DNA from: Nonomuraea rhodomycinica
Lineage (GTDB): Bacteria; Actinomycetota; Actinomycetes; Streptosporangiales; Streptosporangiaceae
Reading direction: 5' to 3'
Assembly (NCBI RefSeq): GCF_013363995.1
Contig: NZ_JABWGO010000001.1
Span: forward strand, 558,001 to 622,000
Length of the DNA: 64,000 nucleotides
Both the position numbers and the translations under genes were made by a program. Positions 9,764 to 60,637 of the stretch are shown here, in pieces. How positions within the stretch are numbered: position 1 is the stretch's first letter; each line of letters starts with the position of its first letter. The notes beneath the pieces are model-generated. The model had not been told where the DNA came from, did no database searches, and worked only from the letters and a program-made list of their open reading frames with translations.

Positions 9764-10537
9764 ATGAGTGGTCCACGCTTCGAGCCGGTGCGCACCGTAC
9801 GCGCCTATGAGCGGATCGTGGAGCAGGTCGAGGAGGCCATCGAGAGCGGCGCCCTGTCCCCCGGGCAGCGGCTGCCGAGCGAGCGCGACCTGATGGGCCA
9901 GTTCTCGGTCAGCCGGTCCACGGTGCGCGAGGCGCTGCGCGTGCTCCAGGCGCGCGGCCTGGTGCGCTCGCGTCCCGGCGACCCCAACGGCGCCGAGGTC
10001 CTGCCGTTCAGCCCGGACGCGCTGCAGAGGTCCATGGCCTCGCTGGCCCGGGTCGAGGGCCTGTCGCTGGGTGAGCTGGTGCAGTTCAGGATGGTGCTCG
10101 ACGGGTCGGCGAACCTGCTGGCGGCCCGGCTGCGCACCCCCGGCCAGCTCGCCGAGATGGAGGCGGCCATCGAGCGGATGCGGGAGGCGGTCACGCGGGG
10201 CTACGACGAGTTCAGCGCCGCCGATTTGGCCTTCCACGACGCGGTGGCGCGCGCCAGCGGCAACAAGCTCATCCAGATCTGCGTCGAGGTGGTGCGCTCG
10301 ATCGTGCTCGGCCTGGTGGCCGACCGGCTCGCCGACGCGCCCGACCGGGAGGCGCTCATGCGGCGCAGCATCCGCCACCACGAGGAGGTGCTGGCCGCCG
10401 TCCGCGACGGCGACGGCCCGCTCGCGGCGCGGCTGGCGCGGCGGACGATGTACGACTACTACGCCGGGTACGTGCCGGCGGCCGAGCGCCCCGCGCTGCG
10501 CGCCCTGCTGGACCAGCCGCACTCCGCGCCGGAGTAG
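9764..10537 (+). CDS. FadR-subfamily GntR transcriptional regulator
   Basis: 257 residues. The winged helix-turn-helix (residues 12-80) has LPSERDLMGQFSVSRSTVREALRVL, and the C-terminal all-helical FCD ligand domain (95-235) carries the usual Asp/His positions (FHDAVARASGN, HHEEVLAAVRDGD). ATG at 9764 follows AAGGGGG. It is divergent from the peptide-transport/peptidase operon and a matching operator is in the gap, so it probably senses an intermediate of that pathway. Confidence 0.88.
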   Translation: MSGPRFEPVRTVRAYERIVEQVEEAIESGALSPGQRLPSERDLMGQFSVSRSTVREALRVLQARGLVRSRPGDPNGAEVLPFSPDALQRSMASLARVEGLSLGELVQFRMVLDGSANLLAARLRTPGQLAEMEAAIERMREAVTRGYDEFSAADLAFHDAVARASGNKLIQICVEVVRSIVLGLVADRLADAPDREALMRRSIRHHEEVLAAVRDGDGPLAARLARRTMYDYYAGYVPAAERPALRALLDQPHSAPE

Positions 10538-10600
10538 GCCCACCCCCCGCCGGAGGGGCCGGCGCCGCGCCGGAGGAGGCCCGCGCCGCGCCGGACCGAC
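10528..10600. repeat. Tandem repeat at the 3' end of the FadR-type gene
   Basis: Four imperfect copies with a 20-21 bp period; the core GCCGGAG/C recurs at 10528, 10549, 10569 and 10590. The first copy encodes the regulator's last codons and its TAG stop. Very GC-rich. Confidence 0.7.
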
Positions 10601-10689
10601 CTCCTCGGGCGATCGGGATGGAGCGGGACACGTCCGATCACCTTGGGATTTGGACGCGCTATCTGCCGTTAACGGTGTATCTTGCAGCC

Positions 10690-11658
10690 GTGGCTCGCGA
10701 GGATTCGGACGGGCTCGTCGAGGCGTTCCTGCGCGAGCCCCGTCGCTACACCAGCCACCAGGTCGCGGAGATGGCCGGGGTGCCGGTCTACCGCGCGCGC
10801 CGGTTCTGGCGCGCGCTCGGCTTCCCGAACGTGGCCGACGACGCCGTGGAGTTCACCGACTCCGACGTGGAGGCGCTGAAGACCCTGCTCGGCATGGTCT
10901 CCTCCGGCGCCTACGACGAGGAGCACGTGCTGCTCATCGCCCGCTCGCTGGGCCGGGCCACCACACGCCTGGCCGAGTCGCAGGCGCAGCTCGGCGTCGA
11001 GGAGCTGGACCAGGCGGGCGTGCCGCTGGCCGAGCGGGCCCGCGCCTGGCGCCGCCGGGCCGACCGGGTGGTGCCCCCGCTCGCGCGGCTGCTCGTCTAC
11101 TCGTGGCAGCGCCAGCTCGCCGCCGCGGCCGGGCGCATGGTCGACCAGGACCACGGCGCGGTCCGGCTGGCCGTCGGCTTCGCCGACCTCGTCGGGTTCA
11201 CCCGGCTGAGCCGGCAGATCACCGAGCGGGAGCTGGCCACGCTGGTCGACCGCTTCGAGGGCCGTTCGGCCGACGTCGTGACCTCCTCCGGCGGCCGGGT
11301 GGTCAAGACGCTCGGCGACTCGGTGCTGTTCGTCTCGGGCAAGGCGCACGAGAGCGCCGAGATCGGGCTGCGGCTGCTGGAGACGCACGCCAAGGTCCGC
11401 GGCATGCCGGAGCTGCGCGTCGGGCTGGCCGCGGGGCCGGTGATCTGGCGGATGGGCGACGTGTTCGGCACGACGGTCAACCTGGCCAGCAGGCTCACGG
11501 CGCTGGCCCGGCCCGGCACCATCCTGGCCGACCCGGAGATGGCCGAGGAGCTGGAGGGCGACCGCGCCTTCGAGCTGCGCCCGGTCAACCGGCTGTCGGT
11601 GCGCGGGCTGGGCGAGCTGGCGCCGTTCGCGATCGCGCGCGCGGGCCGCGCCCGCTGA
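10690..11658 (+). CDS. Class III adenylate cyclase with N-terminal regulatory helix domain
   Basis: 322 residues from GTG 10690; ATG 10618 and GTG 10675 are in-frame alternatives. Residues 1-75 form a helical regulatory domain (RRYTSHQVAEMAGVPVYRAR) like that of actinobacterial cyclases such as Rv1264. The cyclase domain follows: metal Asp in FADLVGFTRL, second metal Asp in KTLGDSVLFV, adenine-selecting Lys in that motif and Asp in GDVFGTTVN, and transition-state Asn/Arg in VNLASRLTAL. It should therefore make cAMP from ATP as a soluble dimer. TATCTT about 7 nt before GTG 10690 could be a -10 box for a nearly leaderless transcript (weak). Confidence 0.87.
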   Translation: MAREDSDGLVEAFLREPRRYTSHQVAEMAGVPVYRARRFWRALGFPNVADDAVEFTDSDVEALKTLLGMVSSGAYDEEHVLLIARSLGRATTRLAESQAQLGVEELDQAGVPLAERARAWRRRADRVVPPLARLLVYSWQRQLAAAAGRMVDQDHGAVRLAVGFADLVGFTRLSRQITERELATLVDRFEGRSADVVTSSGGRVVKTLGDSVLFVSGKAHESAEIGLRLLETHAKVRGMPELRVGLAAGPVIWRMGDVFGTTVNLASRLTALARPGTILADPEMAEELEGDRAFELRPVNRLSVRGLGELAPFAIARAGRAR

Positions 11659-15696: not shown

Positions 15697-15716
15697 CGCC
15701 GGGGTGACCCGTGAGG

Positions 15717-17363: not shown

Positions 17364-17403
17364 GGCGGCTCCAGCACGGCAGGGGCGTTCCGGACACCGG
17401 ACG

Positions 17404-18411
17404 TCAGGCCGGCCTGGCCGTGCTCGCCCGGACGACCAGGGTGGTGGCCAGCTCGATCCGGGTGCCGGTGGACTCGCCGGGATGGGACAGCTCGTCGGCG
17501 ACCAGCCGGATGGCCTCGTTGGCCATGTCGCCGAGCGGCTGGCGGACGCTGGTGAGCGGGGGCGACATGGTCTCGCAGACCGGCGCGTCGTCGAAGCCCA
17601 CGACCGACAGCTCGCCGGGCACCCGGATGCCGCGCTCGGCCGCGGCCTGGTACACGCCGGCGGCCATCAGGTCGGAGCCCGCGAAGACGGCGGTGGGCCG
17701 CTCGGGCAGGTCGAGCAGTTCGCCGCCGCGCTCCTTGCCGCCGCCGACGAGGAAGTCGCCGAAGCGGGTCAGGCGGGGGTCGGGCTCGATGCCGAACGTG
17801 CGGTGCGCGGCGAGGTAGCCCTCCTGCCGGTCGAGCGTGCACCGGACGTCGCGGGGCCCGCCGACGAAGCCGATGCGGGTGTGCCCGAGCTCCAGCAGAT
17901 GGGTGGCCGCCATGACGCCGCCGGACCAGTTCGTGGCGCCGACCGTCGAGAGCCGGGGGTCGCCCTGGCCGACCGGGTCGAGCAGCACCAGGGGCACGCG
18001 CAGCAGCTCCTGGATGGCGGTGACCTCCTCCTGGCCGGCCCGCCACAGGACGAGCACGATGCCGTCGGTGCCGCGTCTGCGCAGGATGCCGAGCCACTGG
18101 CGCAGGTCGAAGTCGGGCCGCGCGGAGGAGGTGACGACGAGGGAGAACCCCCAGCGGGCCGCGGCCCGCTCGGCGCCGCTGATGAGGGCCTGCGCCCAGG
18201 GCGAGCCCAGGCCGCCGATGAGCAGGTCGACCAGGCCGGCCCGGGGCGCGCCGGCCGGGCGGGGCGCCTCGTAGCCGAGGGCCCGGACCGCGTCGAGGAC
18301 CTTCTCCCGCGTGGCGGCCGAGACGTGCTTCCTGCCGCTGAGGACCTTGGAGACGGTCGGGACCGAGACGGCGGCGGCGGCGGCGACGTCGGCGAGCGTG
18401 GCTCGTGGCAC
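17404..18411 (-). CDS. LacI-family regulator, probable repressor of the adjacent GH3 glycosidase
   Basis: 335 residues. The helix-turn-helix is at residues 4-25 (TLADVAAAAAVSVPTVSKVL) with hinge helix SAATREKVLDAVRALGYE, then a periplasmic-binding-protein-like sensor domain (60-330). It is divergent from a GH3 glycosidase, and the gap carries several GAAA/TTTC boxes of the type bound by actinobacterial xylan/cellobiose LacI regulators. It likely releases DNA on binding a short beta-linked oligosaccharide (inference). Confidence 0.87.
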   Translation of the reverse strand: MPRATLADVAAAAAVSVPTVSKVLSGRKHVSAATREKVLDAVRALGYEAPRPAGAPRAGLVDLLIGGLGSPWAQALISGAERAAARWGFSLVVTSSARPDFDLRQWLGILRRRGTDGIVLVLWRAGQEEVTAIQELLRVPLVLLDPVGQGDPRLSTVGATNWSGGVMAATHLLELGHTRIGFVGGPRDVRCTLDRQEGYLAAHRTFGIEPDPRLTRFGDFLVGGGKERGGELLDLPERPTAVFAGSDLMAAGVYQAAAERGIRVPGELSVVGFDDAPVCETMSPPLTSVRQPLGDMANEAIRLVADELSHPGESTGTRIELATTLVVRASTARPA

Positions 18412-18712
18412 GGGACCTCCTGTGACCGAAATATTTCGGGAAAAGTCCGCTGGGGCGAGGTTGCCCGCGGAGCGAGGCCGGTCGGCGTGGGGCGCGGCGG
18501 GCCGCGAGTATTGACACGCTGACGAGCGGGAGCCTAGCGTGACGCGACGGAAAAGTCACGGAAATTGTTCAGAAAGTTGGCCAGAAACTTTCCGAACCCT
18601 CTGCCTCTTCCCGAAACCCTTCGCACCTCCGCGCGTCCCCGTCCCCGCCGCCGGGTCGCGCCCGCCTGATGGGAGATGGCCGCACCATGAGGTTCCACGA
18701 GGACGGACACCG
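18412..18712. promoter_or_regulatory. Divergent promoter region with multiple GAAA/TTTC operator boxes
   Basis: This 301-bp gap holds no gene. CCGAAATATTTCGG (18426-18439) is a perfect 14-bp palindrome next to the LacI gene. GAAAGTT (18572-18578) and AACTTTC (18586-18592) form an inverted repeat that includes GAAACTTTC, the core of the CGAAACTTTCG box known upstream of actinomycete xylanase genes. CGAAACCCTTCG (18612-18623) is a weaker copy. These are probable operators for the LacI regulator on both promoters. Confidence 0.68.
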
Positions 18713-21052
18713 GTGAACGCCGCGGACCCGCAGAGCCTGCACGGCCGCCGGTCGCGGCGGGTAGAGGAGCTGGTGGCCGGGCTGTCGCTGGACGAGAAGC
18801 TCGCCCAGCTCGTCGGCGTCTGGCTGGACGTCGACCGCGAGGAGGGCGTCGTCGCCCCGCTCCAGGACGCGATGCAGGGCGAGGACGTCGAGTTCGAGAC
18901 GTTCGCCCGCCACGGCCTCGGGCACGTCACCCGCCACTTCGGCACCCGGCCCGTCGACCCCGGGTGGGCGAGCGCGCGGCTCGCCGAGCGGCAGCGCTGG
19001 CTGATGGAGCGCACCCGGCCGGGGATCCCCGCCCTGGCCCACGAGGAGTGCCTGACCGGCCTGGCCGCCTGGCGGGCCACGACCTACCCGGTGCCGCCCG
19101 CGTGGGGGGCGTCCTTCGACCCCGGCCTGGTGGAGCGGATGGCGCGGCGGATCGGCGAGGACATGGCGGCGCTCGGCGTCCACCAGGGTCTCGCCCCGGT
19201 GCTCGACGTGATCCGCGACCAGCGCTGGGGCCGGGTCGAGGAGTGCGTCTCGGAGGACCCGTACGAGGTCGCCGTGGTCGGCGCGGCGTACGTGCGGGGG
19301 CTCCAGTCGGCGGGCGTGATCGCCACGCTGAAGCACTTCGTCGGCTACAGCAACTCGCGGGCCGGCCGCAACCTCGCGCCGGTCCACGCGGGCCCCCGCG
19401 AGGTGGCCGACACGCTGCTGTTCCCGTTCGAGGTGGCGGTGCGCGACGCGGGCGCCGGCTCGGTCATGCACTCGTACGCGGAGATCGACGGCGTGCCCGT
19501 CGCGGCCGACCCCACGTACCTGACCGCGGTGCTGCGCGACGCGTGGCGGTTCGAGGGCACCGTGGTCGCCGACTACTTCGCGGTGGCGTTCCTGCACACC
19601 CTGCACGCGGTGGCGGCCGACGCCGGGGACGCGGCCGTCCAGGCGCTCACCGCCGGGATCGACGTGGAGCTGCCCACCGGCGTCGCCTACCTGGAGCCGC
19701 TGAAGCGGGCCGTGCTGGCCGGGCACGTCCCCGAGGACCTGGTGGACCGGGCGCTGCGCCGCGTGCTCGCCCAGAAGGCCGCGCTCGGCCTGCTGGACGA
19801 CGACTACCAGCCCGAGCCGTCCGGCCCCGTGGACCTCGACCCGCCCGCGTCGCGCGAGGTGGCGCGCCGGCTGGCCGAGGAGTCGGTCGTGCTGCTCGCC
19901 AACGACGGCGTGCTGCCTCTCGGCGGCGCGGCCGGGCGGCGGGTCGCGGTCCTCGGGCCGAACGCGGACAGCGTCGCCGCGCTGTTCGGCTGCTACGCGT
20001 TCGTCAACCACGTCCTGCCGCGGTTCCCGGACGTCGCGCCCGGCATCGAGGCCCCCACGCTCCTCGACGCGCTGCGCGCCGAGCTGCCGGAGGCCGAGGT
20101 GCTCCACGAGCGGGGCACGGGCGTGGACGACGGCGACCGCACGGGCATCGCCGCCGCCGCCCGGCTGGCCGCCTCCTGCGACGTGGCGATCCTCGTGCTG
20201 GGCGACCGGTCCGGGCTGTTCGGCCGGGGCACCTCCGGCGAGGGCTGCGACGTGGAGTCGCTGGACCTGCCCGGCGCCCAGGCCGAGCTGGCCGAGGCCG
20301 TGCTCGCCACCGGCACGCCGGTGGTCGTGGTGCTCCTGACCGGCCGCGCGTACGCGGTGCCCGGCCTGCTCGGCCGGGCCGCCGCGGTGGTGCAGGCGTT
20401 CTTCCCCGGCGAGGAGGGCGCGGGAGCCGTCGCCCGGGTGCTCAGCGGCGCGGTCAACCCCTCCGGCCGGCTGCCCATGAGCATGCCGCGCTCGGCGGCC
20501 GGCCAGCCGTACAGCTATCTGCACCCGCGGCTCGGCGCGGCCAGCTCCGTGAGCAACATCGACCCGGCGCCGGCGCTGCCGTTCGGCCACGGCCTGAGCT
20601 ACACCGCCTTCGCCTACTCCGGCCTGACCGCCGACGAGAGCGCGCCCGCCGCCGGCGGGTCGATCCGCTGCGCGGTGACCGTCCGCAACACGGGCGGGCG
20701 GCCGGGCGCGGAGGTGGTCCAGGTGTACGCCTCCGACACCGTCGCCTCGGTCACCCGGCCGCTCGCCCAGCTCGTCGGGTTCGCCCGGGTCGAGCTGGAG
20801 CCGGGCCAGGCCGCGCGCGTCGGCTTCGACGTGCCGCTGCGGCTGCTGGCGTTCACCGGCCGGGACGGGCGGCGGGTGGTCGAGCCGGGCGAGGTGGTGG
20901 TCTCGGTGCGCCGCTCGGCCGCCGACGTCGTCGCCGAGCGGCCGGTCACGATCACGGGGCCGGTGTACGAGGTCACCGGCGCCGAACGCCGGCTCACCGA
21001 GGTCAGCGTTCGCCTCCTGGCCGACCGGCCCGCCACGGAGGACCCGTCGTGA
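18713..21052 (+). CDS. Glycoside hydrolase family 3 (beta-glucosidase/beta-xylosidase)
   Basis: 779 residues from GTG 18713 (GAGG about 10 nt upstream); the open frame extends further 5' but that part is promoter DNA. The GH3 N-terminal TIM barrel contains KHFVGYSNSRAGRN and the nucleophile Asp in VVADYFAV. The second alpha/beta sandwich domain has ESVVLLANDGVLPL, and a C-terminal fibronectin-III-like domain starts at VTVRNTGGRPGAEVVQVY. There is no signal peptide, so it acts on sugars already inside the cell. The LacI neighbour and xylan-type boxes favour xylo- or cello-oligosaccharides. Confidence 0.9.
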   Translation: MNAADPQSLHGRRSRRVEELVAGLSLDEKLAQLVGVWLDVDREEGVVAPLQDAMQGEDVEFETFARHGLGHVTRHFGTRPVDPGWASARLAERQRWLMERTRPGIPALAHEECLTGLAAWRATTYPVPPAWGASFDPGLVERMARRIGEDMAALGVHQGLAPVLDVIRDQRWGRVEECVSEDPYEVAVVGAAYVRGLQSAGVIATLKHFVGYSNSRAGRNLAPVHAGPREVADTLLFPFEVAVRDAGAGSVMHSYAEIDGVPVAADPTYLTAVLRDAWRFEGTVVADYFAVAFLHTLHAVAADAGDAAVQALTAGIDVELPTGVAYLEPLKRAVLAGHVPEDLVDRALRRVLAQKAALGLLDDDYQPEPSGPVDLDPPASREVARRLAEESVVLLANDGVLPLGGAAGRRVAVLGPNADSVAALFGCYAFVNHVLPRFPDVAPGIEAPTLLDALRAELPEAEVLHERGTGVDDGDRTGIAAAARLAASCDVAILVLGDRSGLFGRGTSGEGCDVESLDLPGAQAELAEAVLATGTPVVVVLLTGRAYAVPGLLGRAAAVVQAFFPGEEGAGAVARVLSGAVNPSGRLPMSMPRSAAGQPYSYLHPRLGAASSVSNIDPAPALPFGHGLSYTAFAYSGLTADESAPAAGGSIRCAVTVRNTGGRPGAEVVQVYASDTVASVTRPLAQLVGFARVELEPGQAARVGFDVPLRLLAFTGRDGRRVVEPGEVVVSVRRSAADVVAERPVTITGPVYEVTGAERRLTEVSVRLLADRPATEDPS

Positions 21053-21144
21053 CCCCGGGCGCCGGGCCGTAGGCCGCGACGCGGCCCGCGCGGGAGGCTA
21101 GGATCGCCGAACATCGTTCTGGCCCCATGTGAGGATGTGCGCGG

Positions 21145-22774: not shown

Positions 22775-23599
22775 ATGGATCGGCAACTCACCCTCATGGC
22801 CGTGCACGCCCACCCCGACGACGAGTGTCTGAGCACCGGCGGCGTGCTCGCCCGCTACACCGACGAGGGCATCCGCACGGTCCTCGTCACCTGCACCAAC
22901 GGCGAGCAGGGCGACGGACCGGGCGGCGTCAAGCCGGGCGAGGCCGGTCACGACGACGCGGCGGTGGCCGAGCGGCGGCTGGAGGAGCTGCGCGAGTCCG
23001 TGGCCCACCTCGGCATCGACCACCTGGAGCTGCTGGGCTACCGCGACTCCGGCATGGAGGGCTGGGAGACCAACCAGCACCCCGAGGCGTTCGCCAACGT
23101 CCCGGTCGAGGCCGCCGCGGCCCGGCTGGCCGAGCTGATCGAGCGCTACCGCCCGCAGGTCGTCGTGACGTACGACGAGACCGGCGGCAGCGGCTACAAC
23201 CACCCCGACCACGTGCAGACCCACCGCGTCGCCGTGGCCGCCGTCGAGGCCACCGGCATCCCCGACAAGCTCTACTACACGGCCATCCCGCGGGCGGCCA
23301 TCAAGCGGATGTTCGAGCTGATGGCCGAGTCCGGGGTCGACTTCGGCGACTTCCAGCCGTCCGACGACTTCGGCACCCCCGACGAGCTGGTGACGACCGT
23401 CGTCGAGGTCGCGCCGTGGGTGGAGCGCAAGTTCAAGGCGCTGCAGGCGCACGAGAGCCAGGGCGACAACATCTTCCTGCTCAGCATGCCGGAGGAGACG
23501 CAGCAGGAGGCGTTCTCGCACGAGTCGTTCACCCTGGTGCGCAGCCGCGTCGACACCCCGGACCACGAGGACGACCTCTTCGCCGGCCTGCGCCCGTAA
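22775..23599 (+). CDS. PIG-L family deacetylase/amidase, related to mycothiol conjugate amidase Mca and MshB
   Basis: 274 residues. Zinc motif AHPDDE near residue 12 and the second ligand in NHPDH near residue 147 define the family. The start LMAVHAHPDDE, the KLYYTAIPR segment and the closing SRVD...FAGLRP resemble Mca, which cleaves mycothiol S-conjugates during detoxification. Mca versus another PIG-L activity cannot be separated by eye. ATG 22775 is the best start since the zinc motif normally begins within 15 residues. Confidence 0.82.
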   Translation: MDRQLTLMAVHAHPDDECLSTGGVLARYTDEGIRTVLVTCTNGEQGDGPGGVKPGEAGHDDAAVAERRLEELRESVAHLGIDHLELLGYRDSGMEGWETNQHPEAFANVPVEAAAARLAELIERYRPQVVVTYDETGGSGYNHPDHVQTHRVAVAAVEATGIPDKLYYTAIPRAAIKRMFELMAESGVDFGDFQPSDDFGTPDELVTTVVEVAPWVERKFKALQAHESQGDNIFLLSMPEETQQEAFSHESFTLVRSRVDTPDHEDDLFAGLRP

Positions 23600-23609
23600 C
23601 CCGCGTCCG

Positions 23610-23669
23610 GCGCGTGCCCCGGCGCGGTCGCGGCGCGTGCCCCGCGCGGTCGCGGCACGTGCCCGGCGG
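23610..23669. repeat. Tandem repeat after the PIG-L gene stop
   Basis: GCGCGTGCCCC recurs at 23610 and 23633 and as GCACGTGCCC at 23655, a 22-23 bp period with GCGCGGTCGCG between. It begins 11 bp after the stop codon. Confidence 0.65.
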
Positions 23670-30001: not shown

Positions 30002-30057
30002 GGTGGCTTCCTAACAGAGTGGTCTCGGATTTAATCGTACTATCAGGGAGAACACGA

Positions 30058-30087
30058 TGTCATCGTTGACACATGTCATCGTTGACA
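30058..30087. promoter_or_regulatory. Tandem LacI-type operators
   Basis: The 14-bp dyad TGTCATCGTTGACA occurs twice, at 30058-30071 and 30074-30087, exactly 16 bp apart, with a central CG typical of LacI-family sites. It lies between the binding-protein gene and the kinase. Two sites in near-helical register suggest cooperative binding. Confidence 0.8.
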
Positions 30088-31670: not shown

Positions 31671-31682
31671 CCGGCGCCCGCG

Positions 31683-31754
31683 CGACCCCGTGCGGGTCAG
31701 GCGCGCACGACCTCCTGCGGGTCAGGCGTCGCGCGACCCCGTGCGGGTCAGGCG
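31683..31754. repeat. Three 21-bp repeats between convergent genes
   Basis: Near-identical copies at 31683-31703, 31708-31728 and 31734-31754, period 25-26 bp. Each contains GACC(C/T)C...GGGTC, a 5-bp inverted repeat, and the reverse strand of each contains TGA; the third copy supplies the stop codon of the minus-strand gene. Confidence 0.8.
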
Positions 31755-38053: not shown

Positions 38054-38110
38054 CGGGGACGCGGGTCCCCGCGCGGCAGGTTCACCGGGAGTTCCGCGCG
38101 GGAGGTCCTC

Positions 38111-38209
38111 GCGCGGGTGGTTCACGGGCGAGTGGTTCACGGGCGAGTGATTCACGCGCGAGTGGTTCACGCGCGGGTGGTTCAGGCAGGAGTTCAGGCG
38201 GGAGTTCAC
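38111..38209. repeat. 15-bp tandem repeat array after the LysR gene
   Basis: Five consecutive 15-bp units (38111, 38126, 38141, 38156, 38171) of consensus GSGCGRGTGGTTCAC, then two 12-bp shortened units (38186, 38198). A related pair occurs at 38081-38095. No spacers, so not CRISPR. The 249-bp gap holding it has no gene. Confidence 0.85.
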
Positions 38210-43461: not shown

Positions 43462-43524
43462 CGGACGGCTCCTCGCGGTCACACACTGACGGACCCCTCC
43501 TCGCGGTCACACACTGACGGACCG
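43441..43524. repeat. Three 28-bp tandem repeats covering the fusion gene's stop codon
   Basis: Copies at 43441-43468, 43469-43496 and 43497-43524 differ at only 1-3 positions. The first encodes the last six codons and TGA of the gene; the other two repeat them after the stop. TGA falls at 43459, 43487 and 43515, one in each frame. The rest of this 305-bp gap up to 43766 holds only the operators at 43677-43731. Confidence 0.88.
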
Positions 43525-43676: not shown

Positions 43677-43731
43677 AAGTGGGGTGCCCCCCCATATGAT
43701 CGCGACAACCAAATGGAGGGCCACCCCATTT
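43677..43731. promoter_or_regulatory. Pair of 21-bp dyad operators
   Basis: Two related sites at 43677-43697 and 43711-43731, 34 bp apart, share the pattern AARTGG...CCCCATWT; the second has AAATGG/CCATTT arms. They lie 35-90 bp before the NmrA-like gene at 43767. No regulator gene is adjacent, so the binding protein is unknown. Confidence 0.6.
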
Positions 43732-43766
43732 AATCGGCCCGCACGAGCGCAGAGGAAGACGAGACA

Positions 43767-44696
43767 GTGACGCTGACGAACAAGACCGTCGTGGTGGTCG
43801 GCGCGACGGGTCTGCAGGGCAGGGCCGTGACCCGGCACCTGCTGCGCGACGGCTGGCGGGTGCGGGCGCTCACCCGCGACCCGGACGGCGCCGGCGCCCG
43901 GGCGCTGGCGCGGGCCGGCGCCGAGCCCGTACGGGCCCGGATGGAGGACGTCGGCTCCCTGACCGCCGCCGCCGGGGACGCCTGGGGGCTGTTCAGCGTT
44001 CAGCCCACGGTCGGCTCCCCCGGCACCGCGCCCGACTTCACCACCGAGGACGAGGTGCGCTGGGGGGTGAACGTCGCCGAGGCCGCGCGTGCCGCCGGCG
44101 TCCGGCACCTGGTGTACAGCTCGGTCGCCGGCGCGGACCGTCACCCCGGCGAGAAGGTGCCGGCGAACCTGGTCAGCAAGTGGCGGATCGAACGGCGCAT
44201 CGCCGAGCTCGGCCTGCCCGCGACGATCCTGCGGCCGGTCTCCTTCATGGAGAACTTCACCGGCGGCTACGCGTTGCGCGACGGGACCCTGTCCACCGGG
44301 GTCGCGCCGGACACGGTCCAGCAGCTCGTGGCCGTCGACGACGTCGGCGCCGTCACCGCCCTGGCCTTCGCGCGGCCGGCGGAATGGATCGGGCGGGCGG
44401 TCTCGCTGGCCGCCGACGAGCTCACGCCGGTCCAGGTCGCCGAGGCCATCGGGGCGGCGCTGGGGATCTCGCTGCCCTATGCGCGGATCCCGAACGAGGT
44501 GATCAGGAGCGTGAGCGAGGACTTCGCGTACGCCATGCGGTGGCTCGACGAGCACGGCTACCGCGCGAACATCGCCGCCACCCGGCGGATCCTCCCGGCC
44601 GCCATGGACTTCGGCACCTGGCTGGCGCGCACCGGCGCGGCCCAGATCTCCGCGTTCCTGGACTCCGCGCGCGCAGCCGGACAGGGCGCGTGGTGA
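43767..44696 (+). CDS. NmrA/NAD(P)H-binding atypical SDR
   Basis: 309 residues. N-terminal Rossmann motif VVVVGATGLQGRAVTRHLL and HLVYSSVAGAD match the NmrA/isoflavone-reductase-like group, which binds NADP(H) and acts as reductase or redox sensor. GTG 43767 is preceded by GAGGAAG. Its stop overlaps the next gene (GTGA). Confidence 0.83.
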   Translation: MTLTNKTVVVVGATGLQGRAVTRHLLRDGWRVRALTRDPDGAGARALARAGAEPVRARMEDVGSLTAAAGDAWGLFSVQPTVGSPGTAPDFTTEDEVRWGVNVAEAARAAGVRHLVYSSVAGADRHPGEKVPANLVSKWRIERRIAELGLPATILRPVSFMENFTGGYALRDGTLSTGVAPDTVQQLVAVDDVGAVTALAFARPAEWIGRAVSLAADELTPVQVAEAIGAALGISLPYARIPNEVIRSVSEDFAYAMRWLDEHGYRANIAATRRILPAAMDFGTWLARTGAAQISAFLDSARAAGQGAW

Positions 44697-45574: not shown

Positions 45575-45600
45575 CCCCGCACCGCCGATCGGCGCGGCGG

Positions 45601-45708
45601 CTCAGACCAGGGAGGCCGGCTCAGGCGAGGGAGGCCGGCTCAGGCGAGGGAGGCCGGCTCAGGCGAGGGAGGCCGGCTCAGGTCAGGGAGGCCGGCTCAG
45701 GTCAGGGA
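45601..45708. repeat. 19-bp tandem repeat array covering the APH-fold gene's stop codon
   Basis: Units of CTCAGGCGAGGGAGGCCGG type at 45601, 45620, 45639, 45658 and 45677, plus a partial unit from 45696 that is the last codons and stop (TGA on the minus strand, 45697-45699) of the phosphotransferase gene. Each unit repeats the TGA. Since 19 is 1 modulo 3, the copies give stops in all three minus-strand frames. Confidence 0.9.
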
Positions 45709-46548
45709 CGCCCAGGGCGCCGGTGGAGCCGAGGCGAAGAAGCGGAGCAGGCCCAGCAGCCAGCTGGCGGGCGGTGCGGTCCAGTGGCGTTCGCCCGGGC
45801 GCGGCACCGGGTCCGCCAGGCGGCCGAGGGCCCAGGTGAGATGGAACCACAGCACGCGCGCCTCCCAGCCTGAGGTCTCCTCGCCGCTCTCCTGCCGGTA
45901 GCCGTCGAGCGTGGCCGGGACGCCGGTCAGCGGCAGCTTGGCGAAGTCGGCGGCGGGGTCGGCCCACTGGGCGTCGCCCCAGTCCACGATCGCCTCCAGC
46001 CGAGCGGTCCCCGGGGAGATGAGCAGGTTCTGCGGAGCGATGTCGCCGTGGACCAGGACCACGGGAGGGTCCGCCGGGAGACGCGCCGAGAGCCGGTCGA
46101 ACCAGCCGGTGAGCCAGCGGGCGTGCTCGGCGTCGAGCCAGCCCTCCGTACGGAGGCGGTGGGTGAGCGTCCAGGGGTCGGCCGCGCCGTCGTCCACGGG
46201 GAGCGCGGCGAGGGCGGGGGCGGTGGCCGGGGACAGCCGATGCAGCTTGGCCAGCTCGCGCCCCACCTGGCGCAGGACCCGCTCCGTGCCGGCGGCGGGC
46301 AGGGCCAGGTCCGCGAGATCGCTCCCCCGCGCCCGGGTGAGCAGCAGGTACGGCACGTCCACCACCGAGCACGTGTCGTCGAAGAAGACGACCTCCGCAG
46401 TGCGCACCCCCGCCCGCCGGGCGGCGGGGATGACCACGGCCTCCTTGACCAGGTCGGGCAGGAACCGCTCGGCCCTCGGGACGCGCAGGACCAGGCCGTC
46501 CCCGAGCAGGTAGACCCGGTTGGCCGACCCCGCCGGAAGCGGGCGCAC
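45697..46548 (-). CDS. Aminoglycoside phosphotransferase (APH)-fold kinase
   Basis: 283 residues. The catalytic loop VLVHGDIAPQNLLI (HxD...N) and metal-binding DWGDAQWADPAADFA are clear; the N-lobe Lys-containing strand is LVLRVPR-like and weak. The family includes antibiotic kinases, homoserine/choline kinases and many unknowns; no resistance claim is justified. GTG 46548 is the only good start. The 3' end runs into the tandem repeat. Confidence 0.8.
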   Translation of the reverse strand: MRPLPAGSANRVYLLGDGLVLRVPRAERFLPDLVKEAVVIPAARRAGVRTAEVVFFDDTCSVVDVPYLLLTRARGSDLADLALPAAGTERVLRQVGRELAKLHRLSPATAPALAALPVDDGAADPWTLTHRLRTEGWLDAEHARWLTGWFDRLSARLPADPPVVLVHGDIAPQNLLISPGTARLEAIVDWGDAQWADPAADFAKLPLTGVPATLDGYRQESGEETSGWEARVLWFHLTWALGRLADPVPRPGERHWTAPPASWLLGLLRFFASAPPAPWASLT

Positions 46549-46903: not shown

Positions 46904-49210
<2,307 letters not shown>

Positions 49211-49214
49211 CCTT

Positions 49215-49254
49215 TCTCCACCGATCTCCACCGATCTCCACCGATCTCCACCCG
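49215..49254. repeat. 10-bp tandem repeat after katG
   Basis: TCTCCACCGA occurs at 49215, 49225 and 49235 with a fourth partial copy at 49245. It starts 5 bp after the katG stop and leads straight into the terminator. Confidence 0.85.
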
Positions 49255-49293
49255 ACGAGCCCGGCCGAGTCACCATGATCGGCCGGGCTCGTC
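49254..49293. terminator. Strong terminator between katG and the convergent DUF11 gene
   Basis: A perfect 15-bp stem: GACGAGCCCGGCCGA (49254-49268) pairs with TCGGCCGGGCTCGTC (49279-49293) around a 10-nt loop. It serves katG, and possibly the convergent gene ending at 49320. Confidence 0.88.
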
Positions 49294-53879: not shown

Positions 53880-54887
53880 GTGGAGCACTCCGTACTGATA
53901 CTGGGCGGATCCGGCCAGGTGGGCGCCGGGACCGCGACCCTCCTGCGCCGGTGGTACCCGAAGCTGCGGCTGACGATCGCGGGCCGCGATCTCGGCCGCG
54001 CCCAGCGGGTCGCCGACGAGCTCGGTGGCGCGGCAGCCGCAACCATCGATCTGCGGCGAGGCGACCTCGGCCTCCAGGAGACCGAGGGCTACTCGGCGGT
54101 CGTGGCAACGGTGTGGGACAGCCACCTGAACGGACTGCGTTTCGCACAGGACCGCGGCCTGCCGTACGTCAGCATCTCCAGCGGCCTGGTCGACATCGGA
54201 CCCGAGGTCGTCGCCGCCGGCCTGAGAACCGGCGCAACGCCGATCCTGCTGGCCAGCCACTGGTACGCGGGGCTCGTCGTCCTGGCGGTGCTCGGCCTCG
54301 CCAGGGAGTTCGACCGGCTCGACACCATCGAGGTCAGCGGCGTGCTGGACGAACAGGACGGCGGCGGGCCCGCGGCCATGGCGGACATGGAACGCCTGCT
54401 GGGCGCCACCTCAGCGGGGCACATCCGCCGCGACGGCGTCTTCCACTGGGTCAGCGGCCCCGACGCGGAGGTGGAGGTAACCGGCGTCGACGGCACCGTG
54501 CTACCTGGCCAGATCGTCCCCATCCTCGATGTGCCAAGCCTGGCCCTCGCGACGGGCGCGCCCAACGTCCGCTTCGCGTTCGCGGTCGGTGAGTCGATGG
54601 GCAGGCGGCGCGGCGGGCCCGCGTCCGCGGAGGTCAGGATCGACCTCGAAGGCGTGGACCGCGCGGGCGCGCCGCTCAGGACGAGCCGCTACCTCTTCCA
54701 CCCGGAGGGGCAGCGCTCCCTGACGGCGCTCGGTGTCGCCCTCGGCGTCGAGCGACTGCTCGGCCTGCGCGGCGCCCCCGTGCCGCCCGGACTCCACACC
54801 CCCGAGGCGTTGATCGATCCCGGGTACGCGGCCGAGCGGATGGCGGAGATCGGCACCACCTTCGTCGGCGCGCACGGCGATCGCTGA
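53880..54887 (+). CDS. Saccharopine-dehydrogenase-like NAD(P)-binding protein
   Basis: 335 residues. Rossmann start VLILGGSGQVGAGTATLL, then TIAGRDLGRAQRVADEL and VVATVWDSHLNGLRFAQDRG as in the saccharopine reductase-like superfamily. The rest of the chain is not a match to lysine-pathway enzymes, so it is probably another short reductase. GTG 53880. The divergent TetR and operator point to induction by a small molecule. Confidence 0.72.
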   Translation: MEHSVLILGGSGQVGAGTATLLRRWYPKLRLTIAGRDLGRAQRVADELGGAAAATIDLRRGDLGLQETEGYSAVVATVWDSHLNGLRFAQDRGLPYVSISSGLVDIGPEVVAAGLRTGATPILLASHWYAGLVVLAVLGLAREFDRLDTIEVSGVLDEQDGGGPAAMADMERLLGATSAGHIRRDGVFHWVSGPDAEVEVTGVDGTVLPGQIVPILDVPSLALATGAPNVRFAFAVGESMGRRRGGPASAEVRIDLEGVDRAGAPLRTSRYLFHPEGQRSLTALGVALGVERLLGLRGAPVPPGLHTPEALIDPGYAAERMAEIGTTFVGAHGDR

Positions 54888-54915
54888 CTGCGGCGATCGC
54901 CGGCTGCGGCTATCG
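54876..54915. repeat. 16-bp repeat at the 3' end of the saccharopine-like gene
   Basis: GGCGATCGCTGACTGC (54876-54891) includes the gene's stop; a second copy GGCGATCGCCGGCTGC follows at 54892-54907 and a partial third begins at 54908. The junction with the decayed transposon lies just beyond. Confidence 0.7.
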
Positions 54916-54929
54916 AGAATCGCGGGCGG

Positions 54930-55169
54930 CTGGGCGCCCATCCCAGTAGCGGCCTCAACCGCCTCGCACATTTCCGCAGTCGCGACGATGCCGTATGCCA
55001 ACGTGCGGACATCACCAGAGGTCCCGCGGACATCCAGCCCTAACGCCTCGACGATCGCCCACGGCGGGCATCCATTGCGTACCGCCAACCGATCCACCCA
55101 GGATGCGAACGCCTCGCCAGGCACTGGAGCAACTACCAGCGCCAACTGCCGAGGCCTGATCGCCACCAT
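54930..55169 (-). pseudogene. TniQ N-terminal fragment
   Basis: From ATG 55169 (AGGAGG upstream) the frame reads MVAIRPRQLALVVAPVPGEA then FASWVDRLAVRNGCPPWAIV, the typical start of TniQ/TnsD-type transposition proteins (xLPLxVxPxPGESxxSW). It continues about 75 residues (GIVATAEMCEAVEAATGM), then loses similarity near 54,930 beside the neighbouring gene's 3' repeat. The zinc fingers and C-terminal part are gone. Confidence 0.62.
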
Positions 55170-55222
55170 CCTGGCTGAACCTCCTGCCGTACACGCGCCT
55201 ACTGACATCCCCGTGAGCGTGG

Positions 55223-55259
55223 GAGCGATAGATGGTCATGGGGAGCGATTGTTGGCCCA
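55223..55259 (-). repeat. Left-end transposase-binding-type repeats
   Basis: GAGCGATAGATGGTCAT (55223-55239) and GAGCGATTGTTGGCCCA (55243-55259), 20 bp apart. Reversed, the first matches the third right-end copy at 15 of 17 bases. Confidence 0.6.
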
Positions 55260-55375
55260 TCGCAAGAGCGGGTTACTGCCCTGCTGCGACCGCTGGTCCG
55301 GAGCCGGACCCCCGCCAGCAGACCGCGAGACGTAAGGAACCCGAACACTGCCTTGGAATTCGGGCATCTAGCGCT

Positions 55376-55963
55376 TCACCAACAGATCCAGGCGTCCGGT
55401 GCCGAGGGGCAATGCGTTGGCGGCCCCTTGAGGACGTTACGACCGAGGTGCACAAGGACGTTCACGAAGAAGTGCGCCGTAGGGACTCCGGCGATCTGCA
55501 AGATGATGAGGATCCCCACAACCTGGCCTGCTGCTATCAGGCGTTGCCAAGAGCTGGGGGGTCGCGGCAGATCAGGCACTTTCAACGTACGTCGAAGACG
55601 CGGGGGGAGCAGCCAGCGCAGAATGCGAAACGTTCGGATCGCTGGCCTCCAGCCAACGGTCGTGACGAAGACCTCAAGACTATAGAGACCGATCATCATG
55701 ACGATCATGGCCCAGCCCCACCAAGAGCGGGCTGGCAATTGCAACATGGCGGCCATGAACCAGAGCCCTAGCGCGGAAAGTATCGGCCGCAACGATTCCC
55801 GGATTCGGCCAATCGGAAGAGAAGCGTCTGCCGCGGCGGTCGTGGAGTCTGGATGCAGCGTGCGTATCTGGCCACGTACCTGCAGGTAAGCAAGCGCCAC
55901 CCCTACCACGGCCAGTACGACCGAGATGGCGCCAGCTATCGCTCCGAGAGCATCCCAGCTCAT
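55376..55963 (-). CDS. Multi-pass membrane protein inside the decayed element
   Basis: 195 residues from ATG 55963 (GGAGGAG upstream). Four hydrophobic segments: about 6-28 (LGAIAGAISVVLAVVGVALA), 65-82, 84-106 (WWGWAMIVMMIGLYSLEVFV) and 145-170. Cytosolic loops are basic (RRTLKVPDLPRPPSS). I recognise no family. It has the lower GC of the element and may be its cargo; the reading frame is intact, unlike the transposition genes. Position in a mobile element makes an accessory or defence-type role possible but nothing in the sequence proves it. Confidence 0.6.
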   Translation of the reverse strand: MSWDALGAIAGAISVVLAVVGVALAYLQVRGQIRTLHPDSTTAAADASLPIGRIRESLRPILSALGLWFMAAMLQLPARSWWGWAMIVMMIGLYSLEVFVTTVGWRPAIRTFRILRWLLPPRLRRTLKVPDLPRPPSSWQRLIAAGQVVGILIILQIAGVPTAHFFVNVLVHLGRNVLKGPPTHCPSAPDAWICW

Positions 55964-56153
55964 CCTGCACTCCTCCCCATCTGTCCTGTCCGTGTGACAA
56001 ACAGTGTGAGCAGCCACCTTGCGGTAGCCAAGGCGTAAGCAATCGAAATCGTCTACCTTCTCTTCTCCCTTCCCTGGGAGGAAGTGGCCCTCCATGGGAT
56101 AGGTGGCTGGCCCGGTTATTGAGGCACTGGTTGCGAGATCTCGGCTCGGACTG

Positions 56154-57066
56154 ATTAATTGTCGAGCGTGCTGTCGATGTGTTCCGCCAGCTGACGGGCG
56201 TGGCGCAGGAGGATCTCCTTCACGTGCGCATAGTGCCGCTTTGGGCGGACGGCTTGAAAGTGATACCAGGTGTCTTCGTGGCGCCAAGCTTTCCGGACGC
56301 CTGAGGGCTGTGCGGCCTCGATCGGTCGCGGGACGAAGAGGTGTTCACCTTAGGTGACTTGGGCCGAGACCAGCACGGACGCGGTTTGGCGCTTGCGATC
56401 TCCCAGATCTGGCTGGACGGGGCCCGGGGTTGGTGGGAGTTCGGCGACCATGGAATTCCACGTGTCCTGGTCCAAGGACCAGCGCCGAAGACCAGAGCGG
56501 CGGCGCTGAAAGTTCACCTTGTTCGGTGCGGCCTCAATAGTGTTCAGGACTCGCAGCACCGAGTCGTTGAACGCCTGCGGGTCCGGCGACCGTCTCGCCC
56601 AGGAGTGAACTGCTCCTGCTGCGGCATAGACGCTGCCGTTGCGCGAGTCGGAAACGATGCCGAGAAACGCAGCTGCGTCCCCGAGCGAACCGCCCGAGAT
56701 CATCTGGACAGGTCGGAGCATGACGGTTCGTCGCAGGAGTGCGGGGTTGATCTCGCCCAGGTGGCGGAAGTTCTGGTTATACCAGGGTTCAGGCAAGAAC
56801 GCCGGAATGAGTTCCAGCCTCAGCGTCGTCGTCGAGTGACTGGCGAGGCGTCGACCTCGGAGAGCGCCCTCGCCTCGGCGAAAGCCTGTGAGTAACGGAT
56901 CGCAAGCATCGTTCAGCCCATCGGAGCAGCGAGGCCGCATGCGCTGGATGAGATAGCCCCATGGGGTGAAGCGGGTTTGTCTTGTGCTTTCGGGGACGAG
57001 CGGTCGCAGTCGGGCCCGGACGTCGGCAGGGCTGGGAAGGCTGAGTATCTGGTCGGCGATGGACAA
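56154..57066 (-). pseudogene. TniQ-like transposition protein, interrupted
   Basis: The minus-strand frame contains LIPAFLPEPWYNQNFRHLGE, INPALLRRTVMLRPVQMISG and GDAAAFLGI, typical of TniQ C-terminal regions. It meets TAA at 56350-56352 (just after ASVLVSAQVT), yet the same frame continues with GEHLFVPRPIEAAQPSGVRK and VKEILLRHARQLAEHIDSTL to a natural stop at 56154, so the TAA is a nonsense mutation. The usual N-terminal PxPGES region is absent here. Confidence 0.65.
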
Positions 57067-57074
57067 CAGCCCGG

Positions 57075-57834
57075 AGCAGGCGCCCTTCCTGCAACAGGCC
57101 CGAGCCAGGGGTGTCGAGACCGATGAGGATGAGGGTGACGTGCATGCTCATGAACGCGCGGATGAGGTCGAGCACGTCCTGGTCATCGGCGCGGTGCGTG
57201 CGTAACCGGGTGATGTCGTCCAGCACGAGCACCTTCGTGCCGTGGTCGTTGAGGGACTGGGCGACCTGGCGGATCAGCTCGGGCAGCTCCATGTTCCCGG
57301 TGTCGGCGCCGTAGACGTGCATGGTGGCTTTGCAGGTGGACTTCGGTTTGGCGGTGATGGGCGTTTGGACGTAGGCGACCGGGGCGTGCAGATCCCTGGT
57401 GCCGGCGTGGCACTGGGCAGGTGCAGGTGTGCGTCCAGCCAGAAGTCCTCAAAGGCGGCGCAGACCTCGCAGACCGTCTCCGTCTTGCCTTGGAATCCCC
57501 CGCCGAAGACAATGATCCCGGATCGGGTGGCCGGCTTGTGCTTGAGCGCGTGGGACTCGATCCGGGCACGTAGCAGCTTTTCCACCGCGGTGCTCATTGG
57601 CGTCGCGATCACTGGCAGGTTGGCGTGCGTCGCAGCGCGGTGCAGGTCGTGGAGCATCCGTCGGCGCGGCGACAGCAGCCACCACTCGGCGAGGCCGAGC
57701 TGCGGGGCGGGGATGAAGAGGCCGCGGCTGGTCCGGTAGTGCTCCCTCCCGGCCAAGGGGTCCCGGAATGGGACCTCATCGGGCAGCACGAAGGACTCCG
57801 GGCCTCGGCCGTCCGCTTTTCGAACGGACGTCAT
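57075..57834 (-). pseudogene. TniB-like AAA ATPase, frameshifted
   Basis: ATG 57834 overlaps the preceding TniA-like stop (ATGA). Walker A GGGFQGKTET is followed by VCEVCAAFEDFWLDAHLHL; the frame then shifts by one near 57,410 and continues GTRDLHAPVAYVQTPITAKP, GADTGNMELPELIRQVAQSL and Walker B VLVLDDITRLRTHRADDQD, then DLIRAFMSMHVTLILIGLDT. The C-terminal third is missing where TniQ sequence begins. TniB supplies ATP and selects targets in this transposon class; this copy cannot be functional. Confidence 0.75.
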
Positions 57835-58140
57835 GGGCTGTCTTCTCCGTGCTCGGGCTGGGTCGGCAATGCCTCGTCATCGTCGTCGTGTATGAGGAAG
57901 ATGCTCTTGCGGCGCAGCGCGTCATGCAGAAGCGGAGGTGGTTGCGGTGGTGAGGTGACCACAGCCTCGCGACGGCGGCGCCGCTCCGCGTCGATCTCCT
58001 CTGCCGCCTGGCGGGCCTGCTGCGGCCAGGCCAGAATTCCCCCGCCGATGTCCGCCACATCGCGCTCCATCGCCGGGGCCACTGCGAGCCCAGCGCCAGC
58101 GACCCCAGCGATCGCTCGCCGGCGGTACGAGCAGAGAACA
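57831..58140 (-). pseudogene. C-terminal remnant of a TniA-like transposase gene (tentative)
   Basis: A frame ending at 57831, overlapping the TniB start by ATGA, contains RRRAIAGVAGAGLAVAPAME, DVADIGGGILAWPQQARQAA and an acidic tail DDDDEALPTQPEHGEDSP. Operon position before TniB fits the C-terminal tail of the DDE transposase TniA; no DDE domain remains. The identity rests mainly on position. Confidence 0.4.
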
Positions 58141-58289
58141 GCTCCTCTAAGCCACAGGTCTCCGACCGCACTTCAGGTAAGTCGCCAACCGTCACCACTC
58201 AACCACAGCACCCAGGAACCAGCCGTACCATCGGTTTCCGCAAAGAACACGGGCCTGTGAGGGCTCTGTCTCTCGTGACGGGGGCGGGG

Positions 58290-58348
58290 GTGGCCAACTA
58301 CCACTCTCAAAGTGGCCAGCTACTGCTCCCACTGGCCATCTATCGCTC
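58290..58348 (+). repeat. Right-end transposase-binding-type repeats
   Basis: GTGGCCAACTACCACTC (58290), GTGGCCAGCTACTGCTC (58312) and CTGGCCATCTATCGCTC (58332), spaced 22 and 20 bp. They fill part of the 286-bp gap before the TetR-ferredoxin gene, which otherwise shows no gene. Confidence 0.68.
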
Positions 58349-58484
58349 ATACGCTCACCCCGATGGCTTACTGCCGAGTCCGCTGACATCTCCCGTGCCG
58401 TACTGACATCTGCAAGCGCCTCAGACAGCTCCCTGGGACCGGCCGGCCCTTGACGCGTTAAATGAATGATCTTTTAATTCGTTC

Positions 58485-59315: not shown

Positions 59316-59316
59316 C

Positions 59317-60600
59317 ATGACGGCCGACGACCGTTTCGCCGAGGACTACCGCGAGCCGCGCGGCGACGCGCCGCTCCAGGGCACGCGGACCGAGCCCGTC
59401 ATCGGTCCCGTCTCGGACTGGGCGACCGACTTCTCCCACATGGAGCCGGAGTGGACGGCCGACCCGTACCCCATCCAGGACGACCTGCGGCGGCGCTGCC
59501 CGATCGCGCGCACCGGCCGCTTCGGCGGCGGCTGGCTGCCGACCCGCTACGAGGACGTCGCGGCGATCGCCTACGACACCGAGCGCTTCTCCTCCCGCTC
59601 CATCGTCATGAGCAACTTCCGGCCGCCCCGCGAGATCGCGCCGGTGGGCGGCGTGCCGCCGATCTCCTCGGACCCGCCGTTCCACCACGACGCGCGCAAG
59701 CTGCTGCTGCCCGCGTTCACCCGGACCGCGGTCTCGAAGCGGGAGGCGGCCACGCGGGCGTTGTGCCACGAGCTGATCGACGCGCTGGAGGGCCGCGACG
59801 TCGTGGACGCCGCCCGCGACTACGCCCAGCACATCCCGGTACGGGTGATCGCCGACATGCTGGGCTTCCCCGCGGACGACGGGCCGCGCTTCCGCGAGTT
59901 CATCGAGAGCTCCCTCGAAGGGGTCAACCTGCCCCCGGAGGAGCGCATCGAGCGGATGGACAAGCTGTTCGACTACCTGCTCAAGCAGATCCGCGACCAC
60001 GTCGCCCACCCGCGCGACGACCTGACGACGTACCTCATCGAGGCCGAGCTGTACGGCCGCAAGCTCGAACCCTCGCACGTGGCCGGGACGATCGCCCTGC
60101 TGCTCATCGCCGGGATCGACACCACGTGGAGCGCGATCGGCGCGTCGCTGTGGCACCTGGCCCGCACCCCCGCCGACCGCGAGCGGCTGGTCGCCGAGCC
60201 GGAGCTGCTGCCGACCGCGATGGAGGAGTTCCTGCGGGCGTACGCGCCGGTCACGATGGCCCGCCTGGTCAAGGAGGACATGCGCTGGGGCGGCGTGGAG
60301 ATGAAGGCCGACGACTGGGTGCTGCTGTCGTTCCCGGCGGCCAACCGTGACCCGGAGCAGTTCGACCGGGCCGGCGAGGTGGTCATCGACCGCGAGGTCA
60401 ACCGGCACGTCGCCTTCGGCCTCGGCATCCACCGCTGCGTGGGCTCCCACCTGGCCCGCATGGAGCTGCGGCTGGCGCTGGAGGTGTGGCTGGAGCGGAT
60501 GCCGGTGTTCGAGCTGGCGGACCCGGCGGCGGTGCGGTGGGCGCCGGGCCAGGTCCGCGGGCCGCGCACGCTCCCGCTGCGCCTCGGCCGAGCCTGCTGA
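59317..60600 (+). CDS. Cytochrome P450
   Basis: 427 residues. Heme-ligand Cys374 in FGLGIHRCVGSHLAR, I-helix oxygen-activation motif AGIDTT (265-270), and the ExxR pair in MEEFLRAYAP are intact. It resembles soluble bacterial class I P450s, which take electrons from a small ferredoxin, here the fused domain encoded directly upstream. ATG 59317 follows GAGGGGG. Substrate unknown; the convergent SDR may act on the same compound. Confidence 0.92.
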   Translation: MTADDRFAEDYREPRGDAPLQGTRTEPVIGPVSDWATDFSHMEPEWTADPYPIQDDLRRRCPIARTGRFGGGWLPTRYEDVAAIAYDTERFSSRSIVMSNFRPPREIAPVGGVPPISSDPPFHHDARKLLLPAFTRTAVSKREAATRALCHELIDALEGRDVVDAARDYAQHIPVRVIADMLGFPADDGPRFREFIESSLEGVNLPPEERIERMDKLFDYLLKQIRDHVAHPRDDLTTYLIEAELYGRKLEPSHVAGTIALLLIAGIDTTWSAIGASLWHLARTPADRERLVAEPELLPTAMEEFLRAYAPVTMARLVKEDMRWGGVEMKADDWVLLSFPAANRDPEQFDRAGEVVIDREVNRHVAFGLGIHRCVGSHLARMELRLALEVWLERMPVFELADPAAVRWAPGQVRGPRTLPLRLGRAC

Positions 60601-60637
60601 GGGCCGTCAGCTGAGGGTCGTCGGCTGAGGGCCGTCA
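60596..60637. repeat. Three 14-bp tandem repeats joining the stops of P450 and SDR
   Basis: GCTGAGGGCCGTCA (60596), GCTGAGGGTCGTCG (60610), GCTGAGGGCCGTCA (60624). The first holds the P450 stop; the third, on the minus strand, holds the SDR stop. Plus-strand TGA occurs at 60598, 60612 and 60626, one per frame. Confidence 0.88.

Follow-up and report, generated by a model that had tools for sequence, protein, structure and literature searches.

Bacterial minisatellites, or variable-number tandem repeats (VNTRs), are built of head-to-tail units of roughly 6–100 bp, and their presence and copy number vary between close relatives. The MIRU elements of mycobacteria form one dispersed family of related, longer units, which stand in tandem at gene junctions and can carry stop codons. 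Here we describe short tandem arrays at and just past the stop codons of genes in Nonomuraea rhodomycinica, in and around a stretch of 64,000 nucleotides (the window; NCBI RefSeq assembly GCF_013363995.1, contig NZ_JABWGO010000001.1, positions 558,001–622,000 of the forward strand). An initial annotation of the window had named nine such loci and proposed a shared mutational process acting at gene ends. A shared duplication process is borne out by arrays of dissimilar units at 119 of 679 3'-end junctions; its action at gene ends in particular is not. Short tandem duplications probably arise genome-wide by slippage or misalignment and are retained mainly where they are harmless, at and just past stops.

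Two other described systems resemble these arrays. Each tandem repeat region of the archaeal Borgs has an essentially unique unit, evolves rapidly and is flanked by partial repeats (PMC9879509). Virtually all unit lengths of Borg repeats within genes are divisible by three, and about half of the regions are either intergenic or begin with a unit that lies wholly or partly in the end of a gene; the repeats are enriched in A and lie on extrachromosomal elements, and a part in regulation has been suggested for the intergenic regions (PMC9879509). The GGGAATC heptamer repeats of Xanthomonas and Nostoc occur in tandem near or overlapping stop codons and are under-represented within coding sequence and in divergent gaps (PMC4692102).

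The arrays described here are of a known kind, VNTRs or minisatellites, unusually dense and fast-turning. They agree with VNTRs both in unit size (head-to-tail units, searched in the range of 8–40 bp) and in variation between related genomes. Unlike bacterial VNTRs they comprise no single marker family: each junction has a separate unit, about one-sixth of 3'-end junctions carry an array, and 55 of 139 such arrays lie over the stop. Like MIRU elements they stand as tandem copies at gene junctions and are able to carry stops, but their units are not homologous from locus to locus. As the initial annotation had stated, the unit differs at each locus; only 15 of 9,591 unit pairs were at least 0.8 alike (counted without a chance control), and a single dispersed repeat family was rejected. 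With Borg repeats the arrays share the unique unit, the turnover, partial flanking repeats (here 20 of 31), multiples of three inside genes and placement at gene ends. They differ from these in their GC-rich units (by inspection), in lying on a bacterial contig of 2.4 Mb, and in a placement mostly accounted for by tolerance, compared to the regulation suggested for Borgs. The heptamer repeats are similar in standing in tandem at or over stop codons and in being fewer in coding DNA and divergent gaps; they are one G-quadruplex-forming motif, whereas the units here are diverse and fold no better than controls, by an energy that does not score quadruplexes. Among the literature matches listed, judged by title and the start of the abstract, we found no description of stop-spanning tandem arrays in actinomycetes.

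Placement of the arrays and the reading-frame filter

Arrays were called with Tandem Repeats Finder (TRF; unit 8–40 bp, score at least 60) in a sample of 1.264 Mb, which consists of the window and three 400-kb stretches of its contig (hereafter, own sample). A purpose-made codon-usage caller placed 1,143 genes in this sample. On two annotated Streptomyces plasmid stretches the caller recovered 61–62 of 65 stops and 41–42 of 65 exact starts, and statements based on starts are therefore softer. Junctions with a gap of 0 bp or less, or of more than 2 kb, were left out.

Arrays were found at 2,318 per Mb in convergent gaps (58 arrays in 216 gaps), 1,050 per Mb in codirectional gaps (81 in 463), 537 per Mb in divergent gaps (27 in 235) and 157 per Mb inside genes (173 arrays). 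Five second-order Markov copies of the gaps yielded 0–2 convergent, 0–2 codirectional and 0 divergent arrays, which rules out chance in GC-rich DNA as their source. The GC content of the gaps was 77.4% (convergent), 70.6% (codirectional) and 66.2% (divergent). The 139 3'-end arrays, which occupied about one in six 3'-end junctions, had a median unit of 23 bp and a median of 3.0 copies. Array edges peaked between –30 and +10 around the stop (84 in 35.7 kb, 2.35/kb) compared to 0.84/kb at 100–300 bp from stops or starts (74 in 88.5 kb), and were sparse over the last 40 bp ahead of starts (12 in 35.0 kb), a depletion. An edge lay between –40 and +60 of the stop in 121 of the 1,143 genes and near the start in 32; the stop codon was overlapped by 58 arrays and the start codon by 5. 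The enrichment at stops over other intergenic positions, which the initial annotation had put forward as a test, is thus present in this sample, and we explain it mainly by where duplication is tolerated.

Slippage or misalignment between short direct repeats would make duplications throughout the genome. Inside a gene, a duplication would break the frame unless its length were divisible by three; at a start or promoter it would interfere with expression. A duplication running from the last codons past the stop would leave the protein unaltered, because its first copy would retain the original stop. Lengths inside genes showed the corresponding restriction: exact duplications of 14–60 bp were multiples of three in 28 of 28 cases and TRF units in 168 of 172, compared to a flat distribution outside genes (12, 15 and 14 exact duplications with remainder 0, 1 and 2). 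At stop-spanning arrays the C-terminus was unchanged in 17 of 20 cases in the own genome and 12 of 13 in the sister (together 29 of 33). We infer that the arrays are neutral.

We compared the overlap with stops to an even-placement model, in which each array was collapsed to one copy and units were laid evenly over the gap, with overreach across the stop allowed. In convergent gaps 29 of 58 arrays overlapped a stop, and 27.8 ± 3.2 were expected. This fit, the in-frame duplications inside genes and the similar rates of near-stop arrays at convergent and codirectional stops (below) argue against a process acting at gene ends, and the position of the arrays mostly needs no mechanism of that kind.

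Two observations bear on how the arrays form. In two-copy exact duplications outside genes, the repeat extended at least 3 bp beyond the copies in 20 of 31 cases (~8% expected by chance); this run-on suggests that short direct repeats had misaligned, as happens in slippage, which is presumably the route at the enzyme level. For 19 of 32 stop-spanning arrays the other genome had a single-copy match to the unit; among five shuffles the highest count was 2 of 32.

Turnover between sister species and lineage contrast

Much of the window is syntenic with two congeners, G072 and G068, at a nucleotide identity of ~95%, and the alignments to them often break at arrays. Gene matching to G072 over 500 kb gave median protein identities of 94.6% and 96.3% in two stretches. 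One genome per species was compared, and G068 was not pooled with G072. After 45 convergent and codirectional junctions with overlapping genes had been set aside, 174 3'-end junctions conserved with G072 were counted. Of these, 26 carried an array in the own genome only, 21 in G072 only, 6 in both with different units, 1 in both with the same unit, and 120 in neither. The same unit was therefore present in 1 of the 54 junctions that bore an array in either species. Arrays were present in both species at 7 junctions, where about 6.0 would be expected if they were independent (hand calculation). The median difference in gap length between the two species was 51–60 bp at junctions with an array and 2.5–3.5 bp at those without. 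The 32 3'-end junctions conserved with G068 comprised 7 with overlapping genes, 3 with an array in the own genome only, 3 in G068 only, 1 in both with different units and 18 in neither. Arrays differ almost completely between sister species.

The source genome comprises 9.6 Mb in 90 contigs; its 16S rRNA is 97.7% identical to that of Nonomuraea gerenzanensis and 92% to that of Actinomadura spongiicola, the best among five full-length matches (16 genomes). For the comparison with other genomes, each genome of the panel was represented by a single stretch, of at most 22 kb, surrounding a catalase-peroxidase-like gene, which is non-random DNA. The wider panel was drawn from the best 80 of at least 586 loci; those with GC of 67% or less or a length of 10 kb or less were excluded and 42 were kept, among them one metagenome-assembled genome (MAG) of unclear group, one Burkholderia and one proteobacterial MAG. 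Arrays were present at 17.5% of 3'-end junctions in the own sample (119/679), 13.7% in G072 (42/306) and 11.5% in G068 (7/61). The fraction was 4.0% in three farther congeners pooled (8/199; p = 3e-7 for own versus these), 8.7% in N. gerenzanensis (10/115; p = 0.019), 9.6% in Streptomycetaceae (27/282; p = 0.0015) and 1.2% in 28 other high-GC loci (4/323; p = 4e-17). Arrays inside genes numbered 65 per Mb in the latter loci.

The contrast is weaker by the stricter yardstick of exact duplications. Outside genes, those of at least 14 bp numbered 249 per Mb in the own sample (41 events), 250 in G072 (15), 412 in G068 (4), 243 in Streptomyces G037 (5), 198 in G010 (4) and 65 in the 42 other loci (10), and none of 14–60 bp was found in G057 and G069. 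Inside genes there were 25.5 per Mb in the own sample (28), 5.3 in the 42 other loci (4) and 22–76 in the farther congeners (13 in all). Exact duplications of 10–60 bp were dropped as a lineage yardstick after 22 arose in first-order Markov copies; the Streptomyces count in that range was too high (74), probably owing to masked runs (300 N), and the count was redone with N excluded and a lower limit of 14 bp. Because arrays inside genes differ less between lineages, and exact duplications outside genes are about as dense in G037 as in the own sample, the contrast may reflect either a higher duplication rate or weaker removal. All 12 genomes checked have both the NucS and the Ku families, so loss of either is not the cause.

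Weighing the explanations

Five observations sit less easily with genome-wide duplication filtered by tolerance. In codirectional gaps 26 of 81 arrays overlapped the stop, where even placement predicts 14.7 without a promoter buffer and 20.5 with one of 60 bp, a mild excess. Arrays off the stop had a single-copy match in the other genome in 8 of 30 cases, about as often as when shuffled (9 of 30); such a missing ancestor signal for gap-only arrays would follow if gaps turned over fast, without being evidence that they do. Of the six junctions with different units in both species, three had units of equal length, at 80418 (23 bp) and 280393 (21 bp) of sample A and 60601 (14 bp) of the window (per-pair chance ~0.065, p = 0.005). 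No likeness between the paired units was detectable (P = 0.09, 0.57 and 0.39), and some of these pairs may be old arrays with units replaced rather than independent births. Later copies kept the stop triplet at 0.58–0.60 compared to 0.50–0.54 for their neighbours (70–77 arrays in three genomes; p = 0.02–0.07, depending on the control). Finally, arrays inside genes were about as dense in the own sample (157 per Mb) as in the farther congeners (136 per Mb) despite far fewer 3'-end arrays in the latter, and a simple difference in genome-wide rate does not predict this.

A mutational hot spot at gene 3' ends, arising for example from transcription termination or convergent transcription, would account for the peak of array edges around stops and for the codirectional excess. 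We nevertheless regard it as unlikely, as convergent gaps fit even placement without any hot spot and exact duplications occur inside genes too, all of them in frame. Arrays with an edge between –40 and +10 of the stop were about as frequent at convergent stops (42 per 432) as at codirectional ones (34 per 463; p = 0.23), and convergent transcription is therefore not needed; co-occurrence at the same junction in two species was also at about chance level. Selection for stop-spanning arrays as spare stops, in a GC-rich genome with few chance stops, is less likely still. Its appeal lies in the finding that stops in all three frames within 45 nt were present at 11 of 52 stop-spanning ends and 25 of 676 array-free ends (p = 1e-5), together with the slight excess of retained triplets. 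The P450 gene (59317–60600) illustrates what spare stops could do: the TGA stop of G068 and G072 is CGA here (60589–60591), and the predicted end of the frame lies three codons further on, within the array. However, the p value of the triplet excess varies with the control (0.02–0.07), and none of 39 ends with an array just past the stop had stops in all frames. Unit lengths that are not multiples of three, for which the initial annotation had proposed a test of enrichment, made up 43 of 58 where two-thirds are expected (p = 0.27), which rejects selection of unit lengths for shifting the frame. A shifted stop was seen in 6 of 47 array-bearing genes and in 17 of 223 others (p = 0.25), and relocation of stops driven by arrays was likewise rejected. 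The backup stops suggested in the initial annotation are thus a real by-product, which arises because the stop is copied with unbiased unit lengths, and come with no length bias and no significant stop shift.

That the arrays are transcript-end elements, either terminators or structures that stabilise mRNA, appears very improbable. An array can indeed lie between a stop and a terminator-like hairpin, as at 49215, but that hairpin is separate from the array and is present at most congeneric places without it, and units vary from junction to junction and between sisters. The mean folding z was –0.47 for arrays (139), –0.17 for single units (123) and –0.53 for array-free 3' ends (332), with 3% of arrays and 9% of array-free ends below –2; the arrays thus fold no better than other gene ends. 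By folding energy relative to controls the unit has no stable hairpin, and an intrinsic terminator or a hairpin like those of repetitive extragenic palindromic (REP) elements was rejected. No Rfam match was found in the window at gathering scores. Duplication throughout the genome, retained where it is tolerated, accounts for most of these observations and remains the explanation we favour.

The nine arrays of the window and their meaning

TRF found an array at each of the nine places in the initial annotation. Copy numbers given there as 2–5 ranged from 2.6 to 6.3, and the main array at 38091, described there as at or just after the stop, starts 37 bp past it. Six of the nine overlap a called stop (10520, 31679, 43441, 45598, 54875 and 60596), as had been stated, and at 43441, 45598 and 60596 units of 28, 19 and 14 bp, not multiples of three, place stop triplets in all three frames. 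The window is on the array-rich side of the sample (8 of 33 3'-end junctions); comparably strong arrays away from gene 3' ends lie at 30052, 61471 and 61527.

Several of these loci have a simpler counterpart in a sister. The array at 10520–10595 (+ strand, 21 bp x 3.7) overlaps the stop of a GntR/FCD regulator gene (9788–10537); by eye, G072 has a single copy at this locus and G068 roughly two, both degenerate. At 43441–43523 (+ strand, 28 bp x 3.0) the array copies the end of a GNAT/methyltransferase gene (42184–43461), stop included; the corresponding sequence is single in G072, and G068 carries another array. The array at 45598–45712 (– strand, 19 bp x 6.1) copies the stop and preceding codons of a minus-strand gene for an APH-family phosphotransferase (45697–46548), and its unit, six-fold here, is single-copy in both sisters by eye. 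At 54875–54915 (+ strand, 16 bp x 2.6) the array overlaps the stop of a gene (53880–54887) whose product weakly matches saccharopine dehydrogenase-like proteins, and G072 has one copy of the tail (by eye); the gap behind this gene exceeds 2 kb, which excluded the array from the junction counts. Next to it, 54890–58440 (3.6 kb) has lower GC, no confidently called genes and no BLASTN alignment of more than 150 bp to either sister stretch.

Two arrays lie between convergent genes. That at 31679–31756 (no strand assigned, 26 bp x 3.0), between genes at 31254–31670 (+) and 31748–32116 (–), overlaps the minus-strand stop; no array was called at this locus in G072, where degenerate repeats of a GGGTCAGG-like stretch are visible by eye. 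That at 60596–60638 (no strand assigned, 14 bp x 3.1) spans both stops of the P450 gene (+) and a short-chain dehydrogenase gene (60635–61414, –), and a different array of 14 bp x 3.0 is present in G072 and none in G068.

The remaining three arrays lie past the stop. At 23608–23668 (+ strand, 22 bp x 2.7) the array begins 8 bp past the stop of a PIG-L family gene (22775–23599); G072 has no array listed there, and the following gene is apparently missing. At 38091–38184 (+ strand, 15 bp x 6.3), behind a LysR-type gene (37151–38053), the main array is flanked by weaker overlapping repeats that begin at 38069, 15 bp past the stop, and reach to 38219. The array at 49215–49252 (+ strand, 10 bp x 3.8) stands between the stop of the catalase-peroxidase-like gene (46907–49210) and its terminator-like hairpin (49256–49291, + strand; arms 49256–49268 and 49279–49291), which lies outside the repeated unit. 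For this junction, 20 places (own included) were returned as loci out of 54 genomes. By eye, a similar hairpin was present at 17 of the 19 congeneric places (18 of 20 with the own genome). The array was present in the own genome only, with the hairpin intact, and in none of the 19 congeneric places, two of which carry other arrays behind this gene.

Other features of the window were seen in the same comparison. In a divergent gap, a two-copy, palindromic-looking 16-bp repeat (30052–30087) is nearly unchanged in G068 and G072, and the gap measures 203 bp in each of the three genomes. In this conservation it differs from the 3'-end arrays, and it looks like a regulator binding site. Upstream of an NmrA-like gene (43767–44696) an inverted repeat with arms at 43677–43686 and 43722–43733, largely shared by both sisters, looks like an operator. 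The G068 and G072 alignments skip 17370–21080, where a gene for a GH3 glycosidase and a neighbouring gene lie; the glycosidase shares 80.6% identity with a protein of N. gerenzanensis, and either insertion here or loss in the sisters would explain the difference.

As a bolder and doubtful extension, one clade of a Nonomuraea-like genus might duplicate short stretches with a machinery of unusual activity, and the products, filtered into gene 3' ends, might rewrite many convergent junctions between species. Stop-spanning copies would then double as spare stops that let the original stop be lost, as may have happened in the P450 gene (60589–60600), and a mutational by-product would change protein ends. 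The arrays provide a measured null model for repeats that accumulate at stops, in which a position that seems functional can be explained by tolerance; for readers of genomes, stop-centred repeats need an even-placement null before a role is claimed. The contrast between lineages (1.2% to 17.5% of 3'-end junctions) could be used to map the cause of short tandem duplication.

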